Part shown: positions 49,949 to 59,212 of the stretch, one piece after another
Layout of the letters: each line of letters begins with the position of its first letter
How positions within the stretch are numbered: the stretch's first letter is position 1
Source of the DNA: Natronomonas sp. CBA1123
Lineage (GTDB): Archaea > Halobacteriota > Halobacteria > Halobacteriales > Haloarculaceae
Length of the DNA stretch: 64,000 bases
Reading direction: 5' to 3'
Assembly: GCF_009741925.1 (NCBI RefSeq)
Contig: NZ_WPCC01000008.1
Coordinates: 1 to 64,000 of the forward strand
Notes under the pieces: model-generated
The model's input: the letters and a program-made list of their open reading frames with translations, nothing else
What the model was told of the DNA's origin: nothing
Database searches by the model: none
Program-made: the position numbers and the translations under genes

Positions 49949-50752
49949 TCAGTAGTCCCCGAGGACGCCAAGCCGTCGTGCACGCCGCGTCGACGCCTGG
50001 AACACTGCGTAGCCGAGGCCGAGGTAGCCGACAGCGACCGCCACCAGCAGCGCCACGTCGGCCGGCGGGAACTCCCAGAGTCGGACGCCATCGACCATCG
50101 TCCGCTGGAGGAGGTCGCTTCCGTGTGCCAGCGGTAGTACCTTCAGCCACGGCACTCCCAGAGCAGGTGCCGAAATCAGCACGACGAAGCCGAACTGCAG
50201 CAGATTCAGCCAGTTACCGATTCGTTTGTACAGGACGGTGATGCCACCGGCCGCAAAGCCCAATCCCAGCACCGAGAGGATGCTGAGCGACGCGACGACG
50301 ACGATGGTTCCGACGTGTAACTCGAGTCGAGTCCCGGTAATCAGCAACATCGCCCCGAGAATAATCGACGAGATGAGGAACGTCCGCACCACCTTTGCGG
50401 CGCCCTTCAGCAACGCGACGGGTGCGAACCCGAACGGGGTCATCACGTGGCGTTCGAGCGTCCCCCACTGGACCTCACTGCCGATGTCGTTCGATATCGA
50501 CGAGTAGGCACCGACCGACAGCGTCCACAGGAAGTAGCCGACGATGATACCTTCGATGGAGTCGGTGAGCGCCTGTCCTGCGAGCATCCGCCCGCCGTAG
50601 AACAGCACCCCGAAGAAGAACAGCGAGATGACGATACCCCCGATAGCGTTGGCCGGATACCGGACGAACAGCAGGAACTCCCGGTAGAGGACGGCGCGTG
50701 CGAGGTGGTAGTAGCCCGCTTTTTGTGGTCCGGAGGCTTCGTCTGCGCTCAT
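49949..50752 (-). CDS. ABC-2-type exporter permease
   Basis: This 267-residue permease has six predicted helices and the ABC-2 layout: N-terminal YREFLLFVRYPANAIGG, then WGTLERHVMTPFGFAPVALL in the coupling region. It starts within the last four bases of the ATPase gene (ATGA overlap), so the two form an exporter. Such pairs export drugs, lipids or polysaccharides; none can be chosen here. Confidence 0.88.
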   Translation of the reverse strand: MSADEASGPQKAGYYHLARAVLYREFLLFVRYPANAIGGIVISLFFFGVLFYGGRMLAGQALTDSIEGIIVGYFLWTLSVGAYSSISNDIGSEVQWGTLERHVMTPFGFAPVALLKGAAKVVRTFLISSIILGAMLLITGTRLELHVGTIVVVASLSILSVLGLGFAAGGITVLYKRIGNWLNLLQFGFVVLISAPALGVPWLKVLPLAHGSDLLQRTMVDGVRLWEFPPADVALLVAVAVGYLGLGYAVFQASTRRARRLGVLGDY

Positions 50753-51852
50753 CGGTCCTCCTCCCGGGTCAGGCCGACGAAGATATCTTCGAGGTCGGGT
50801 TCGACCGTCCGGATTCGCTCCGGTGTCACGCCGGCTCTCGATAGCACATCCATCAGTGCGTACAGGTCGTCACCGGCCGCCACGACCTCGATTCGCGCTC
50901 CCCGCTCTAACTCCTCGATGTCGGTGATGTCGAACCGCTCCCGGATGGCCGCTATCGCGTCACTGTCGAGGTCCGAACTCTCGACGACGACTGTCCCGCT
51001 GGCGGCACCGCGGAGCAGCGAGTCAACGGAATCGTCGGCGATGATACGACCCTCGGACATGACGAGCACCCGGTCACAGACCGTTTCGATAACGCCCATG
51101 TCGTGGCTGCTGATGAGAACGGTCAAACCTTCCTCCTCGGCGAGCCGTCGCAGCTCGCGCTGGAGCGTCCGGGAACTCTCGACGTCGAGTCCGAGCGTCG
51201 GTTCGTCGAGGAAGACGACCTCGGCGCCACCGGCCAGCACGCTCGCCAGCGAGACTTTCTGTTTCATGCCCCGCGAGAGCTTCCGGACGGGCGTGTCGGC
51301 CCACTCGGCCAAATCGAGCCGTTCGAGCAGGCGGTCGTGGCGGTCGGTAACCGAATCGGGGTCGACGCCGCTCACCGTCGCGAAGTATCGAAGGTTCTCG
51401 CGGACGGTCAGCCGCCAGTAGTCGTTTCGTGCTCCCTCCAGCATCGCGTCGACGTTCGCGTACGCCGCCTTCGGTCGCTCGGCAACGTCGACACCGGCTA
51501 TCCGAACCGAGCCCTCGTCCGGAACGACCATCCCGAGAACTGATTTGATGAGCGTCGTCTTCCCGGCACCGTTGGGCCCGAGCAGCCCGACGACCGACCC
51601 GGCTTCGACCTCGAAACTCACGTCGTCGACCGCCAGCACCGAGTCGGTCCCCGTGCCGAAGCGTTTCGTCAACCCCTCGACCGCGATTGCTGTCTCTCGT
51701 GATACCGCTCGTTCCGAAACCCCGTTCCTGGAGTCAGTTCCCGTCGGAAACTCCTCGGTCTCCGCAACCGCAGCATCTGCCGACCGCGGGGGCTGGCCGT
51801 TCCGGTCTGCCGTCCGGTGGCGTTCGCCGCCGGTCCCGTCCGGCTTTGTCAT
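50749..51852 (-). CDS. ABC-2-type exporter ATPase
   Basis: From ATG 51852 this is 367 residues. A disordered hydrophilic N-terminus (about 50 residues) precedes the ATPase domain with Walker A GLLGPNGAGKTTL (about 89-101), signature KLSRGMKQKVSLA, Walker B EVVFLDEPTLGLD and H-loop ISSHDMGVIE. The C-terminal about 80 residues form an extra domain like DrrA-type exporters. Longer upstream starts are possible but that sequence overlaps the promoter side of purL and looks non-coding. Confidence 0.85.
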   Translation of the reverse strand: MTKPDGTGGERHRTADRNGQPPRSADAAVAETEEFPTGTDSRNGVSERAVSRETAIAVEGLTKRFGTGTDSVLAVDDVSFEVEAGSVVGLLGPNGAGKTTLIKSVLGMVVPDEGSVRIAGVDVAERPKAAYANVDAMLEGARNDYWRLTVRENLRYFATVSGVDPDSVTDRHDRLLERLDLAEWADTPVRKLSRGMKQKVSLASVLAGGAEVVFLDEPTLGLDVESSRTLQRELRRLAEEEGLTVLISSHDMGVIETVCDRVLVMSEGRIIADDSVDSLLRGAASGTVVVESSDLDSDAIAAIRERFDITDIEELERGARIEVVAAGDDLYALMDVLSRAGVTPERIRTVEPDLEDIFVGLTREEDR

Positions 51853-52053
51853 TGCTCCCCGTAGGAGTGCCAGTCGGATAACCCGGTCGGCACAGGCCGC
51901 CTTCGCCGGAGCGACCGTCGCCGCGAACGTTGGGATGCCGACGAGAATACGCAGGCTTTGGCTACCGGTAACGATTAGCGATAGCGTTCGGCCGGAATAC
52001 ACGAACGTGCACATGAAAAGCGATTTATCCACCCGAAAGAAGCATACGGATGA

Positions 52054-54195
52054 ATGCCACTCGCGCCGTCGGACCGCGAACTCGTCGTCGAGGAACTGGG
52101 CCGAGACCCAACGCCCGCTGAGGAAACGCTGTTCGAGAACCTCTGGAGCGAACACTGTGCGTATCGCTCCTCGCGGCCGCTGCTGTCGGCGTTCGACAGC
52201 GAAGGCGACCAGGTCGTCGTGGGGCCGGGTGACGACGCCGCCGTCGTCGCGCTCCCAGACCCAGAAACCGGCGAGAACAGCGAGACGTACATCACGATGG
52301 GTATCGAGAGCCACAACCACCCTTCCTACGTCGACCCGTTCGACGGCGCCGCGACGGGCGTCGGCGGCATCGTCCGCGACACGCTGTCGATGGGCGCTTA
52401 CCCCATCGCGCTCGCCGACAGCCTCTACTTCGGTGACTTCGACCGCGAACACTCCCGGTATCTCTTCGAGGGCGTCGTCGAGGGAATCTCCCACTACGGC
52501 AACTGTATCGGCGTCCCGACGGTGACCGGGTCGGTCGCCTTCCACGACGACTACGAGGGCAACCCGCTCGTCAACGTCGCCTGTATCGGTCTGACCAACG
52601 AGGAACGACTCGTCACGGCCGAAGCCCAGACGCCGGGCAACAAACTCGTCCTCGTCGGCAACGCCACCGGGCGAGACGGCCTCGGCGGCGCTTCATTCGC
52701 CAGCGAGGACCTCGCGGAGGACGCCGAAACCGAGGACCGCCCGGCGGTCCAGGTCGGTGACCCCTACGCCGAAAAGCGACTCATCGAGGCCAACGAGGAG
52801 TTGGTCGACGAGGGACTACTGCGGGCCGCACGCGACTTGGGTGCAGCGGGGCTCGGCGGCGCTTCCTCCGAACTCGTCGCCAAAGGCGGTCTCGGCGCTC
52901 ACATCGACCTCGAGGCGGTCCACCAGCGCGAACCGAATATGAACGCGCTGGAAATCCTGCTTGCGGAATCCCAAGAGCGGATGTGTTACGAGGTCCGTCC
53001 GGAGGACGTCGACCGCGTCGCCGAAATCGCCGCAAAGTACGACCTCGGCTGTTCGGTCATCGGCGAGGTGACCGAGGGCAACTACGTCTGTGAGTTCGAC
53101 GGCGAGGTCGTCGTCGACGTCGACGCGGACTATCTGGCGGAGGGCGCGCCGATGAACGACCTGCCGCACACCGAACCCAGCCAGCCGGAACGGGACCTGC
53201 CCGACGTGGACCTCTCCGAGGCCTTCGAGGCCGTCGTCGCCTCGCCGAACACCGCCTCGAAGGAGTGGGTGTACCGCCAGTACGACCACGAGGTCGGCAC
53301 GCGGACGGCGATGAAACCCGGCGACGATGCGGCGCTGATGGCCATCCGAGAGAACGGCACCGGCCTCGGGTTCACGTCGGGTGCCGACCCCAACTGGACC
53401 GACACGGCCCCCTACGAGGGCGCTCGTGCAATCGCCCTGGAGAACGCCACGAACCTCGCGTCGAAGGGGGCGACGCCGCTTGCGGCCGTCGACTGTCTCA
53501 ACGGCGGCAACCCCGAGAAACCCGACGTGTACGGCGGCTTCCGTGGCATCGTCGACGGCCTCGCCGACATGTGTAGCGACCTCGACGTGCCGGTCGTCGG
53601 CGGCAACGTCTCGCTGTACAACGACTCCCCGTCCGGTCCGATTCCGCCGACGCCGACGCTCGCGATGGCGGGCACGAAGGTCGGCTACGAAGCGCCGAGT
53701 GCCGCCCTCGACGGCGAGGGAACGCTCTTGGTCGTCGGTGGCTCCGACGACCGCTCGCTGGGCGGGTCGGAACTGCTATCGCAGTTCGACGGCACCGACC
53801 GGTTCCCGGCAGTGCCAGAAAATGCGGCAGAGGTCGTCGCGGCCATCGTGGAGGTAGCCGACTACGAAACCACACACTCCACCCACGACGTGAGCCACGG
53901 CGGCCTCGCGGTCACGCTCGCCGAAATGGTCGGCGAGGCTGGTGCCGACGTGACTCTGCCGGACGAAGGTTCACCGCTCGAGGCGCTGTTCTCGGAGGCC
54001 GTCGGCCGCGTCGTCGTCGAGACGACCGACCCCGAATCGGTTCGGAAGCGCTTCGACGGCGTCGCACCTGTCGAGAAACTCGGTGAAGCGACGGAGACGG
54101 GCCGACTCGAACTCGCCGTCGGCGATGTCGAACTCGACTACGCTGCCGACGCCATCGCGGACCTCCGAGACGTCATTTCGCGCGAGTTGGCATGA
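52054..54195 (+). CDS. purL: Phosphoribosylformylglycinamidine synthase, large subunit
   Basis: This 713-residue enzyme, with PurS and PurQ, turns FGAR, ATP and glutamine-derived ammonia into FGAM in purine synthesis. It has [11 protein letters not shown], the ATP region [13 protein letters not shown], then [30 protein letters not shown] and [12 protein letters not shown], all typical of the small-type PurL. PurS and PurQ are not nearby. Its last 23 bases overlap the convergent PAP2 gene. Confidence 0.96.
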
Positions 54196-55064
54196 GGTTC
54201 TGAAGGCTTCGACTCCACCGCCGAAGCCGGGGGAATTCCGGTGGGTCCTCCTCCATCTGCTGTCCGATTTTGACGCTCACGACGCCGAGGAGGATGCCGA
54301 AGATGACGTCCGTCGCCCAGTGAATCCCGAGATACATCGTCGCTACCACGACGCTCGACGCGAGGAGGGCGGCGACGGGCGTCCACCGCGGGTACTCGTC
54401 GTGTGTCGTCCACGCGAGGACCAGTGCGGTGACCGCCATCGAGGTGTGCAGCGAGGGGAACACGTTCGTTTCGGAGTTGACGACCTTCGTGAGGAACTGA
54501 TACTGTGAGTGGTGGCTGAACATCAGTCCCTCGACGGCCCCCGACAGCAAGTTTCGGGGGCCGTAGGCGATGAAGATGACGTAGCAGGTGACGCCGATGA
54601 TGTAGTTCGCACCGTAGGCGACGATGGTCCGTCGGAGCGGCCGCGGGTCCGGGAGCGCGAAGTACGCGACCACCGGGAAGGCCAGCAGGAACACGTAGCC
54701 GTACACGTAGATGGACGTGAAGTACAGCGTCAGTTCCGGTGTCGCCATCGACTGTAGCCAGACGACGACCTGCGGGGCCTGTCCCCCGATAGAACGGCGC
54801 CAACAGCATCCCGTCGAGTTTGTGGATGTACGGCGTGATGTTCCAGCCGATAATCCACGAGATGTCCGGGCCGATGTCACGTGCGACCTTGTTCGCCACG
54901 AGGACGATGCCGAACAGCCCCATATACGGCGCAATCGACGTGAGCCGTGTGCGGTACTCCATGCGCGTCTCCCGCAACCGGTCACGGCCGATGAACAGCG
55001 CCGCCCCCGCGGCGAGTAACAGGGTCACGACGAGCAACAGCTGTGTGAGGACGATGCCGAGCAT
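54173..55064 (-). pseudogene. PAP2-family membrane phosphatase, frameshifted in a run of five G/C
   Basis: The first frame (MLGIVLTQLLLVVTLLL on) has helices down to LDGMLLAPFYRG. At 54783-54787 (five C on the plus strand) the frame shifts, and the other frame continues QAPQVVVWLQSMATPEL. It then carries the PAP2 motifs: FPSLHTSMAVTAL and the final YLGIHWATDVIFG. With four bases instead of five, the protein is 296 residues and complete. It probably dephosphorylates a lipid phosphate such as a polyprenyl carrier. It starts within the stop of the solute-binding gene (TAATG), so the two are coupled. Confidence 0.84.
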
Positions 55065-56827
55065 TACGCTGCACCCCGTCTGACGAGTCGGTCGTTGTCG
55101 TCGTACTGGTAGCCGGCCTCACGGAACGCATCCCGTGCCGCCGGCACGTCGAGTTCACCGTCCTCGCCGAGGAACGGTAGCGATGCCGTGCCGGACCACT
55201 CCAGTTCGGACGGTTGCCACGTCCCTCCTAACGGTGTCTCCGATGGGCTGGCGTACCCCTCGAAGGTGTCTCTGACGATGTGGCCGCGGTCGAGCAGGCG
55301 GGCGACGGTGCGGCGGAACCGCGGGTTCGACAACGGGGCATGCCGACAATTGTAGCCGACGTGGTGGAACGTCTTCGAGCGGTCCACGGTGAGGCCGATG
55401 TCGTCGTTCCGGCCGATTCGCGGCACGACCGAGGCGCCGACGCCACTCACCGTCCCGTCGGCATCGTTCGATTCCAGCAGTTCGACGGCCGCGTCGTCGG
55501 ATGGAACGACCGTGATGCGGAGTCGGCTGAAGGGAACGCCGTCGGCGAATCTGTCCGGGATTCCCGTCGAATCGCCATCGTGCAGGAAGTGCTGCGGGAA
55601 GGCGTCGAGTGTGAGGTAACTATCGACGCTCGCGTCGTTGAACTGTACCGGTCCACTCCCGACGGGCGATTCGTTTGGCCAGACCAGCGCCTCGGTCGTC
55701 TGACCCGCGATGTCGATGCCAGCGATGTCGACGGTGTCGCTCCGTTCCCGCCAGACGTGTTCCGGGAGGACGGGCACCTCGAGCGCTCGCCGTGCGGGTT
55801 CGATTTCCGAAGCCGTGAACGTGATGTGTACGTCCGTGTCGTTTCTGGCACGGACGGATTCGACGAGCGAGAGCCGCCCCCGGTGCCGCGGCGTCGGAAC
55901 GGCCGTCTCGGAGTTGCCGAGCGACGTGTCGGTCAGGAACTCGTAGGTGAAGGCCACGTCGTTTGCGGTCACCGTCTCGCCGTCGTGCCACGGCGTCTCC
56001 CGGAGCGTGAGGGTCGCCGTGAGTCGGTCGCCATCGTTCCACTCGATGTCGCGTGCGAGCCACGGTATCGACTCCCCGTCTATCGTTCGAGCCAGCGGTT
56101 CGTACAGCAGGCCAGTCACGATACCGCTGTCGCGGTACTCGACGGCTATCGGATTCCGGTTTTCGGTCACACGTGGGTCCCGGATGAGAAGGTGTAAGCG
56201 GTCGGTCTCACCGGTGCGCACCAGCGGAAGGTAGTCCGTCGGACGGTGGATGCCGCCGTTGGGCCACCCCCGATACCGGTCGGTTCGGACGCCGGCGATT
56301 CGGTCCGGAAACGCGACGACGCTGAACGGTTGCTTCTTGACGACATCCCGTTGAATCTCACGAACTACTTCCGCTCTGTCCGCCCCGGAGAGGTGTCGCT
56401 GCTGGTCCAAAATCTCGTCCATCTCGAGGTCGCTGAAGCCGAAGGGGTTCTGCCACCCTGCCTCCTCGCCGTAACTGGAGTACAACAGCGACCGGAGTTC
56501 GTCGGGGTTCCCCTGTGCCGGATAGCGAGTGACGTATATGTCGAAATCGAGATTGATGAGGACGTTCTGGAAGAGCTCGCTCGACTCCATCGGGCTGACC
56601 GTGGTGTCGATGCCGGCTCGAGTGAGGTTGGTTGCGAGGCGGTTGGCGATACGGACCGCGTAGGGGTCCTCGGATGCGGGGACCGTCGAGATAGAGAGCG
56701 ACAGCTGTTCGGAGGCTTCCCGACCGGCGATACTCCGGAGCTCGCTGACACAGCCACTCGTGGCCGTGAGTGCTCCGAGACCGCCCGCGAGTACCGCACG
56801 GCGGCGGAGGGCTGAGTCGGGCGCCAT
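55064..56827 (-). CDS. Circularly permuted family 5 solute-binding lipoprotein
   Basis: This 587-residue protein has a signal ALRRRAVLAGGLGAL with a likely lipobox Cys26. Its two lobes are in swapped order. Residues about 42-205 match the C-terminal part of DppA/OppA-like binding proteins (LTRAGIDTTVSPMESSELF, DFDIYVTRYPAQGNPDEL, REIQRDVVKKQPFSVVA). Residues about 206-587 match the N-terminal and middle parts (LLYEPLARTIDGESIPWLA, TPWHDGETVTANDVAFTY, PRFRRTVARLLDRGHI), ending at DNDRLVRRG where the normal protein would go on. No permease or ATPase genes are next to it. It is translationally coupled to the PAP2 gene. Confidence 0.85.
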   Translation of the reverse strand: MAPDSALRRRAVLAGGLGALTATSGCVSELRSIAGREASEQLSLSISTVPASEDPYAVRIANRLATNLTRAGIDTTVSPMESSELFQNVLINLDFDIYVTRYPAQGNPDELRSLLYSSYGEEAGWQNPFGFSDLEMDEILDQQRHLSGADRAEVVREIQRDVVKKQPFSVVAFPDRIAGVRTDRYRGWPNGGIHRPTDYLPLVRTGETDRLHLLIRDPRVTENRNPIAVEYRDSGIVTGLLYEPLARTIDGESIPWLARDIEWNDGDRLTATLTLRETPWHDGETVTANDVAFTYEFLTDTSLGNSETAVPTPRHRGRLSLVESVRARNDTDVHITFTASEIEPARRALEVPVLPEHVWRERSDTVDIAGIDIAGQTTEALVWPNESPVGSGPVQFNDASVDSYLTLDAFPQHFLHDGDSTGIPDRFADGVPFSRLRITVVPSDDAAVELLESNDADGTVSGVGASVVPRIGRNDDIGLTVDRSKTFHHVGYNCRHAPLSNPRFRRTVARLLDRGHIVRDTFEGYASPSETPLGGTWQPSELEWSGTASLPFLGEDGELDVPAARDAFREAGYQYDDNDRLVRRGAA

Positions 56828-58885: not shown

Positions 58886-59212
58886 ATGAGCTTCGATTGG
58901 GAAGACGTGACTGGCGTGGTTGTCGTCGGTCTGCTGCTCATCGCACTTGGATTGACCGTCGCGGGCATCGAGACGCTAGCTGGGTTCGACGTGCTCGCCG
59001 CTGGTGACTCCGCGGTCGGATACCTCGCAGCCGGGAACTTCAGCGTGGGCGTCCTTTCGGCAGGCGTCTTCTCGGTCGGCATCTTCGCGGCCGGGATTTT
59101 CTCGGTTGGCGTTTTCGCTATCGGTATCTTCTCGATAGGTATCTTCTCGTTCGGCATCTACGCTGCCGGCTTTTACGCCGTCCGACGGTACGTCAAATCG
59201 GCCGAAAACTGA
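58886..59212 (+). CDS. Small membrane protein built from five-residue repeats
   Basis: This 108-residue protein has one N-terminal helix (about 8-32). From about residue 45 to 98 it repeats a five-residue unit close to G-(I/V)-F-(S/A)-(V/A/I), for example FSVGVLSAGVFSVGIFAAG. It ends in a basic tail VRRYVKSAEN. The repeat could form a membrane-buried solenoid or a pair of helices with glycine faces. No family is recognised. A separate TATA-like sequence (TGATATATGTGATATC) lies about 30 bases before the ATG. Confidence 0.75.
   Translation: MSFDWEDVTGVVVVGLLLIALGLTVAGIETLAGFDVLAAGDSAVGYLAAGNFSVGVLSAGVFSVGIFAAGIFSVGVFAIGIFSIGIFSFGIYAAGFYAVRRYVKSAEN

Follow-up and report, generated by a model that had tools for sequence, protein, structure and literature searches.

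Results

The stretch of DNA analyzed here (the window: positions 1 to 64,000 of contig NZ_WPCC01000008.1 of the haloarchaeon Natronomonas sp. CBA1123, 64,000 nucleotides) carries a gene for a twin-arginine (Tat) lipoprotein, P0001. This protein has the cluster C (family 5) binding-protein fold, represented by the Pfam family SBP_bac_5 (PF00496), in circularly permuted form. An earlier note, made from the sequence alone, had placed the gene at 55064–56827; these coordinates were borne out by an open-frame check, which assigns it to the minus strand. Directly downstream lies a gene for a PAP2 membrane lipid phosphatase (Table 1). The source assembly consists of 89 contigs and the genome is 97% complete.

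Table 1. Features at the P0001 locus (window coordinates).
Feature	Position	Strand	Basis
Permuted SBP_bac_5 Tat lipoprotein P0001, 587 residues	55064..56827	(-)	open frame, Pfam
Twin-arginine signal and lipobox, residues 1–26, RRRAVLAGGLGALTATSGC	56750..56827	(-)	sequence
Module placed C-terminally in canonical family 5 proteins, N-terminally in P0001, residues 43–205	56213..56701	(-)	profiles, fold
Module that is N-terminal and middle in canonical proteins and C-terminal in P0001, residues 208–587	55067..56206	(-)	profiles, fold
PAP2 (PAP2_3) membrane lipid phosphatase gene, start overlaps the stop of the P0001 gene	54173..55064	(-)	Pfam
Upstream membrane-like protein, 420 residues	56884..58146	(-)	open frame; membership in the unit uncertain

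Against PF00496 the whole of P0001 scored 145 bits (curated cut-off 32.4), and the Pfam scan of the protein matched no other family. On the full chain, hmmscan aligned residues 254–579 with profile positions 3–284; residues 38–206, searched alone, gave profile positions 290–364 (E 2.4e-4) with 20.8 bits, which is below the whole-protein cut-off. The genome-wide search with the same profile matched 56698–56471 to profile positions 288–364 and 56068–55088 to positions 3–285. With a profile of our own, built from nine canonical haloarchaeal proteins (514 positions), the two pieces scored 26.5 and 59.5 bits separately, and after the same profile had been doubled end to end, P0001 gave one continuous match of 91.2 bits. 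A better profile of 40 canonical proteins (495 positions, denoted h) placed h356–494 first and h52–354 behind it. Because the pieces cover the profile with no part seen twice, we are dealing with one permuted domain and not with two domains. Pfam, the doubled profile, and the better profile all show that P0001 departs from the canonical N-to-C module order of SBP_bac_5. The earlier note had assigned residues of about 42–205 to the normal C-terminal part and residues of about 206–587 to the normal N-terminal and middle parts. Pfam, the canonical profiles, and the fold of the segment agree on the former (about 43–205), and Pfam, the profiles, and the model on the latter (about 208–587); the separate PF00496 search of the two segments that it had proposed returned match coordinates in reversed order.

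As a control, the doubling was applied to 73 rows labelled canonical and to 128 rows labelled T1 or T2, two of the permuted types described below. The canonical-labelled rows changed by only −2.3 to +2.4 bits, except for L135 (+33.8), which consists of two pieces in normal order, and the T1/T2-labelled rows gained +6.5 to +83.6 bits, except for L037 (−0.6). By the better profile, 13 of the 73 canonical-labelled rows are in fact permuted (nine from the 80-locus set introduced below, and L164 on the minus strand, L174, L177, and L220), showing that the doubling test misses weak pieces. DppB/C genes adjoin L164 and L174, and a PAP2 gene adjoins L220.

The AlphaFold2 model of P0001, calculated from an 81-row alignment, reached a predicted local distance difference test score (pLDDT) of 87.8 and a predicted template modelling score (pTM) of 0.85; residues 38–206 folded alone gave 78.1 and 0.62. 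The structures were compared segment by segment with a sequential aligner on Foldseek's best 1000 chains of the PDB. Residues 201–586 of the model aligned to AppA 18–358 (Z 21.9) and residues 209–584 to DppA 1–346 (PDB 1dpp, Z 19.7), while the segment 38–206 aligned to AppA 356–490 (Z 11.3) and to DppA 336–479 (Z 10.7). In the model, both parts are thus placed in reversed order and tile most of the bilobed fold (DppA 1–346 plus 336–479 of 507). The earlier note had called for a topology-independent comparison with DppA; its description of a whole fold, cut and rejoined, finds support in the swapped Pfam coordinates, the coverage of DppA by both parts, and the same order in orthologues. The new ends of the mature chain are in the loop that follows the AGYxxDDDGRL stretch, the old termini are joined, and the Tat/lipobox signal still stands in front. 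We take DppA 336–346 to lie within the second lobe (domain III), so that the new N-terminus of P0001, and with it the lipid anchor, would be located on the opposite lobe from usual.

A scan of named genomes gave 203 relatives, of which the best 80 form the 80-locus set (locus length median 17.7 kb, shortest 6.1 kb). The set spans Natronomonas, Halorubrum, Halorussus, Haladaptatus, Haloarcula, Natrialbaceae, and others; among the matches listed, the nearest relative is from Natronomonas gomsonensis (93%, L045). The C-type module precedes the N-type module in all 80 loci and in the eight second copies beside them, and the canonical profile likewise sets the C-type piece first in 80/80, so the orthologues of identical order that the earlier note had suggested looking for do exist. 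All 88 P0001-like frames (80 plus the eight second copies) have the Tat-lipobox pattern, and C26 of P0001 is invariant in the 81-row alignment, which holds 30 invariant columns. A P0001-like protein (E ≤ 1e-40) occurs in 29 of 40 genomes, own genome counted.

In 78 of the 80 loci, an open PAP2 frame begins no more than 200 bp downstream, on the strand of the binding-protein gene. Taking as a proxy for the PAP2 start the first ATG or GTG in frame from 40 nt before the stop of the substrate-binding protein (SBP) gene, which need not be the true start, we observed an overlap with the SBP stop in 59 of 79 loci (one base, as TAATG, in 23; four bases in 35; eight in one) and a position between 8 nt before and 20 nt after the stop in 70 of 79. 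In eight of the 80 loci there is a further P0001-like SBP, accompanied by a PAP2 gene of its own, and SBP and PAP2 genes alternate. A hand count over 40 genomes, own genome included (SBP E ≤ 1e-40, PAP2 E ≤ 1e-20), found both proteins in 28, adjacent and on the same strand in 28/28, neither in ten, and discordance in two, one of which (G039) has only a weak PAP2 match. The motif PSLHTS is kept in 82 of 87 PAP2 frames and GIHWxxD in 81 of 87; the catalytic H208, H250, and D254 (L045 numbering) are invariant in 16/16 aligned rows. Among solved relatives, the PAP2 profile (A4) matched PgpB (E 7.8e-7), YodM (1.6e-4), LpxE (0.019), and AUR1 (0.024), and the scores stay far below the NCBIfam equivalog cut-offs, reaching 31.3 of 261 bits at best. 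Our literature search found no report on the function of a haloarchaeal PAP2 protein.

Relatives of DppB or DppC were detected in none of the 80 loci (phmmer, one reference each, E ≤ 1e-5; ATPase genes lay outside that search). The statement of the earlier note that no ATPase gene is nearby stands for Dpp-type genes only: a frame for a DrrA-like ATPase of the ATP-binding cassette (ABC) type lies at 50749–52545 (-), beyond purL, with a long stretch preceding the ATPase domain in the open frame. The 420-residue protein encoded upstream of P0001 gave no Pfam or NCBIfam match in profile searches; a relative is found directly upstream in 31 of the 80 loci and anywhere in the locus in 39. Further away, 58886–59212 encodes a small hydrophobic protein with many short glycine repeats and weak matches to the GLTT and pentapeptide Pfam families.

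P0001 is not the only permutant of its genome. Three SBP_bac_5 genes were found there (G000), all permuted, at three different points. P0001 has the cut point that we call T1, which is common to many proteins encoded beside DppB/C permeases. The second protein (contig C44, L002:1450–3204) stands ahead of dppB, dppC, and two oligopeptide-type ATPase genes (L002/L044) and is of type T2 (h346–495, then h19–323), cut about 10–30 profile positions earlier than P0001. The third (contig C47, L001:1432–3078), whose locus has a permease recognized by eye, is of type T3, cut near the end (h455–494, then h35–453); Pfam shows it as one continuous normal match, and against the canonical L152 it has 41% identity plus a displaced 51-residue piece at 55%.

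A hand-listed census of 83 genes behind 94 rows (21 genomes, 20 of them with genes) comprised 39 canonical genes, 38 permuted ones (27 T1 including T1b, four T2, seven T3), and six unclear cases; five genomes (G000, G001, G009, G015, G016) have permuted copies only. The clearest pair is L164 (3380–5377, minus strand) and L160 (2941–4977), which have opposite module order: residues 243–665 of L164 align with 66–493 of L160 at 62% identity and residues 64–245 with 498–679 at 65% (E 5e-85). A matching signal region stands in front of both, and both lie beside DppB/C genes. In the T3 proteins L153 and L161 the swapped piece reaches only 3.7 and 2.6 bits in the profile, and against the canonical L162 it gives E 1e-13 and 1e-12; for L131 no displaced piece was seen against L162. 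DppB or DppC is encoded near 18 of the 24 non-PAP2 haloarchaeal T1 proteins (hand count) and was not found in the other six loci, some of which are short. Separately, L204, L205, and L206 are permuted binding proteins of another family (f20) from the same phylum, with dppB and dppC adjoining on the opposite strand; they may or may not share an origin with T1.

To count the events, the permuted proteins were re-ordered before alignment and an 85-row tree was calculated. In this tree T3 is nested in a clade of canonical proteins (100/100), the canonical L162 is the sister of T3' (L153, L161; 100/100), T2 and T1b (L164, L174) share one clade with the canonical L160 and L167 (100/100), and 12 PAP2-linked rows form one clade (100/99). 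Topologies were tested on 36 of the 85 rows by the approximately unbiased test (p-AU), given for both modules and then for roughly the leading 300 residues of the re-ordered chains, a stretch dominated by the N-terminal plus middle module. Because the groups were defined with a tree already in view and on these 36 rows, the p-values are optimistic. A single origin of all permuted forms was rejected (5.9e-62; 0.0027), as was a single origin of T3 (4e-76; 4e-43). T2 plus T1b as one clade was rejected as well (1.7e-12; 0.011), a result with which one gain and two reversals are still compatible. T1 plus T1c as one clade was not rejected (0.106; 0.111), and neither was T1b as one clade (0.18, both modules). 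The trees require at least five permutation events (T1, T1b, T2, T3, T3'), provided that the canonical order came first and that no permuted lineage ever reverted to it.

The permuted order also occurs in bacteria. A tblastn search of plasmids with a T1 protein gave 43 records that reach 80% coverage or more at a single position, with Alphaproteobacteria among the matches listed. Of seven bacterial loci examined, one (a Rhizobium) is canonical and six are permuted T1 (Nitratireductor, Ketogulonicigenium, Neorhizobium, Roseomonas, Maritalea, Microvirga). These six (L224, L225, L226, L227, L228, L230), all on alphaproteobacterial plasmids, fall within a T1 subclade together with haloarchaeal rows in the 85-row tree; in L228 the doubled profile leaves two separate, swapped pieces. 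The four annotated loci all have adjoining ABC permease and ATPase genes (4/4), and the plasmid records label the permuted proteins plainly as "ABC transporter substrate-binding protein". Genes for M28 peptidases also adjoin L225 and L227. Inspection by eye revealed no obvious lipobox in L224, L225, L227, and L228, and the idea that the permutation serves lipid tethering in general is thereby weakened.

Discussion

The earlier note had suspected that P0001 may not be an ordinary importer part. The linkage to PAP2 speaks for this in the case of P0001. As a consequence of the permutation it does not follow, because permuted relatives adjoin DppB/C in haloarchaea and ABC permease plus ATPase genes in Alphaproteobacteria. 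The permutation and the PAP2 linkage are seen directly; from them we infer a joint function, and we consider it somewhat probable that a permuted importer protein was re-used as an extracellular, ligand-binding partner to a PAP2 enzyme. Both proteins would act outside the membrane, given that Tat lipoproteins undergo export and that the active site of PAP2 enzymes of this kind is on the outer side. The lipoprotein would hang outside the cell by the former internal edge of lobe 2, still close on a ligand, and dock on the outward-facing PAP2 enzyme in place of DppBC. There it could present a phosphorylated lipid or polyprenyl-type substrate, or report its presence, at PAP2, and the pair would constitute a binding-protein-dependent lipid phosphatase or phosphotransferase. 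Since the PAP2-linked rows form one clade with an importer-type cut point, the link to PAP2 seems to go back to one recruitment out of permuted importers. The importer ancestors would then already have had the permuted topology, which would not have arisen for the PAP2 role; the likely origin of that topology is an in-frame tandem duplication followed by trimming at both ends.

Several observations weigh against this reading. In L116 the PAP2 gene is 2.3 kb away from the SBP gene, in L075 no PAP2 was found in the locus, and the discordant genome G037 (76% complete) has the SBP without a detected PAP2. The TAATG coupling is present in the window just as the earlier note stated, and yet the window's own PAP2 frame is broken: a frameshift splits it over two frames near 54772–54798, although it is intact in close relatives. 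The cause may be an assembly error or a recent pseudogene, and in the latter case the pair would no longer work in this isolate. Operon linkage is no proof of a complex either; ligand, contact, and activity are predicted. The descent from permuted importers depends on the shared cut point, and the T1 fork of the 85-row tree is weak: three T1 subclades meet there with the long canonical branches L212 and L217, and the main T1 group is one clade in 8% of the bootstrap trees. We attribute this low value to the two long branches; the main T1 rows hold together in an 80-row quick tree (support 80) and in the 36-row tree without L212 and L217 (100/99).

Could P0001 instead be an orphan importer component that feeds a DppBC permease encoded elsewhere, with PAP2 merely co-expressed? 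The two other SBP_bac_5 loci of the genome do carry permease genes (L002/L044; L001 by eye), and DppB or DppC genes neighbor 18 of the 24 haloarchaeal T1 proteins that are not linked to PAP2. Each of those two loci, however, has its own SBP, and among the 80 loci DppB/C relatives occur in none, yet PAP2 adjoins the SBP in 78. We think this explanation unlikely. A regulator is quite improbable too, that is, an SBP fold that lost ligand binding and steers PAP2 or a glycolipid pathway as a scaffold, in the manner of the mycobacterial lipoprotein LpqW. The match to LpqW (PDB 2grv) concerns the N-terminal module of P0001 and residues 408–482 of 621 (E 9.5e-7), and LpqW is among four PDB sequences at E ≤ 1e-5 for this module. 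The alignment also sets an Asp of 4qfk (a dipeptide binder), presumed to pair with the peptide amine, against a non-acidic position of P0001. On the other side, the LpqW match stands in canonical position, and 30 columns, which may or may not line the cleft, are invariant in 81 rows. That a misassembly or a wrong gene call mimics the permutation is hardly conceivable: the assembly has 89 contigs and the neighboring PAP2 frame is broken, but P0001 is one open frame with its own signal, and the orthologues, which keep the order in 80/80 loci and also in genomes assembled as one contig (G001 and G018, for example), rule it out.

The re-use of a permuted importer protein beside PAP2 can be joined with the repeated permutations into a broader proposal, which we advance tentatively, being on balance inclined to doubt that it is right in all its parts. 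The pair would be a new two-gene, binding-protein-dependent membrane lipid phosphatase in which the SBP serves PAP2 as its ancestors served an ABC permease; family 5 would have undergone five or more permutations that put the new termini into lobe 2, a placing that we take from profile positions and assumed DppA domain borders; and the tether would have moved to the other lobe in the lipoprotein species, a convergent topology change selected for the manner in which the protein is suspended over its partner.

Repeated natural permutation at different points would amount to a natural experiment on how the family 5 fold works, and pairs of the L160/L164 type let the cost and benefit of a permutation be measured directly. 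Annotation is blind to such changes, as seen from T3, which looks like one Pfam match, and from the plain labels of the plasmid proteins. The pairing with PAP2 suggests the recruitment of a transport component into lipid chemistry on the surface of the archaeal cell.

Neither the fold nor the kind of rearrangement is new in itself; new, as far as we found no report of them, are its occurrence in this family, the repetition, and the PAP2 partner. DppA, OppA, AppA, and NikA (PF00496) are homologous in sequence and fold over both P0001 modules, with the module order swapped. Among 60 of the 118 matched PDB sequences, none had a best stretch spanning both modules. The PAP2 partner keeps the same His-His-Asp motifs as PgpB, YodM, LpxE, and AUR1, at scores far below the equivalog cut-offs. 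The envelope lipoprotein LpqW is reported to channel phosphatidylinositol mannoside (PIM) intermediates to lipomannan synthesis (PMC3229680), a role outside transport, which would also fit the regulator discussed above. Its matched stretch stands at the canonical position, unlike in P0001, and its reported action is in the synthesis of PIM and lipoarabinomannan (LAM); match and reported role together suggest that an SBP fold is able to serve envelope lipid chemistry. In E. coli, DppB is reported to put a motif between the lobes of DppA (PMC12136057); one may speculate that the tethered lobe could therefore matter for docking.

Circular permutation of large binding proteins is better known as a laboratory trick. 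The earlier note knew of no described case and had made no search. For family 5, we found no report of a permuted protein among the open-access papers listed, as judged from titles and the opening lines of abstracts (subscription papers and preprints lay outside the search). Among binding proteins at large there is a described case: TpMglB-2 (Tp0684) of Treponema pallidum, which belongs to another cluster, is circularly permuted and was proposed as "Type Ic / Cluster Bc", and its authors raise tethering as a possible reason for the permutation (PMC4990184). TpMglB-2 is like P0001 lipid-anchored and naturally permuted, with new termini inside a lobe and the bilobed fold kept. MglB is absent from the names of the 23 PDB sequences matched by P0001, which are peptide, nickel, opine, oligosaccharide, family 5, or uninformative names. 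TpMglB-2 has a cluster B sugar-binding fold, is permuted in the N-lobe, and is encoded with its ABC transporter, whereas no DppB/C relative was found near the P0001 clade in the 80-locus set. P0001, in contrast, belongs to cluster C family 5, is cut in what appears to be the other lobe, and represents a permutation that seems to have arisen in several separate events.

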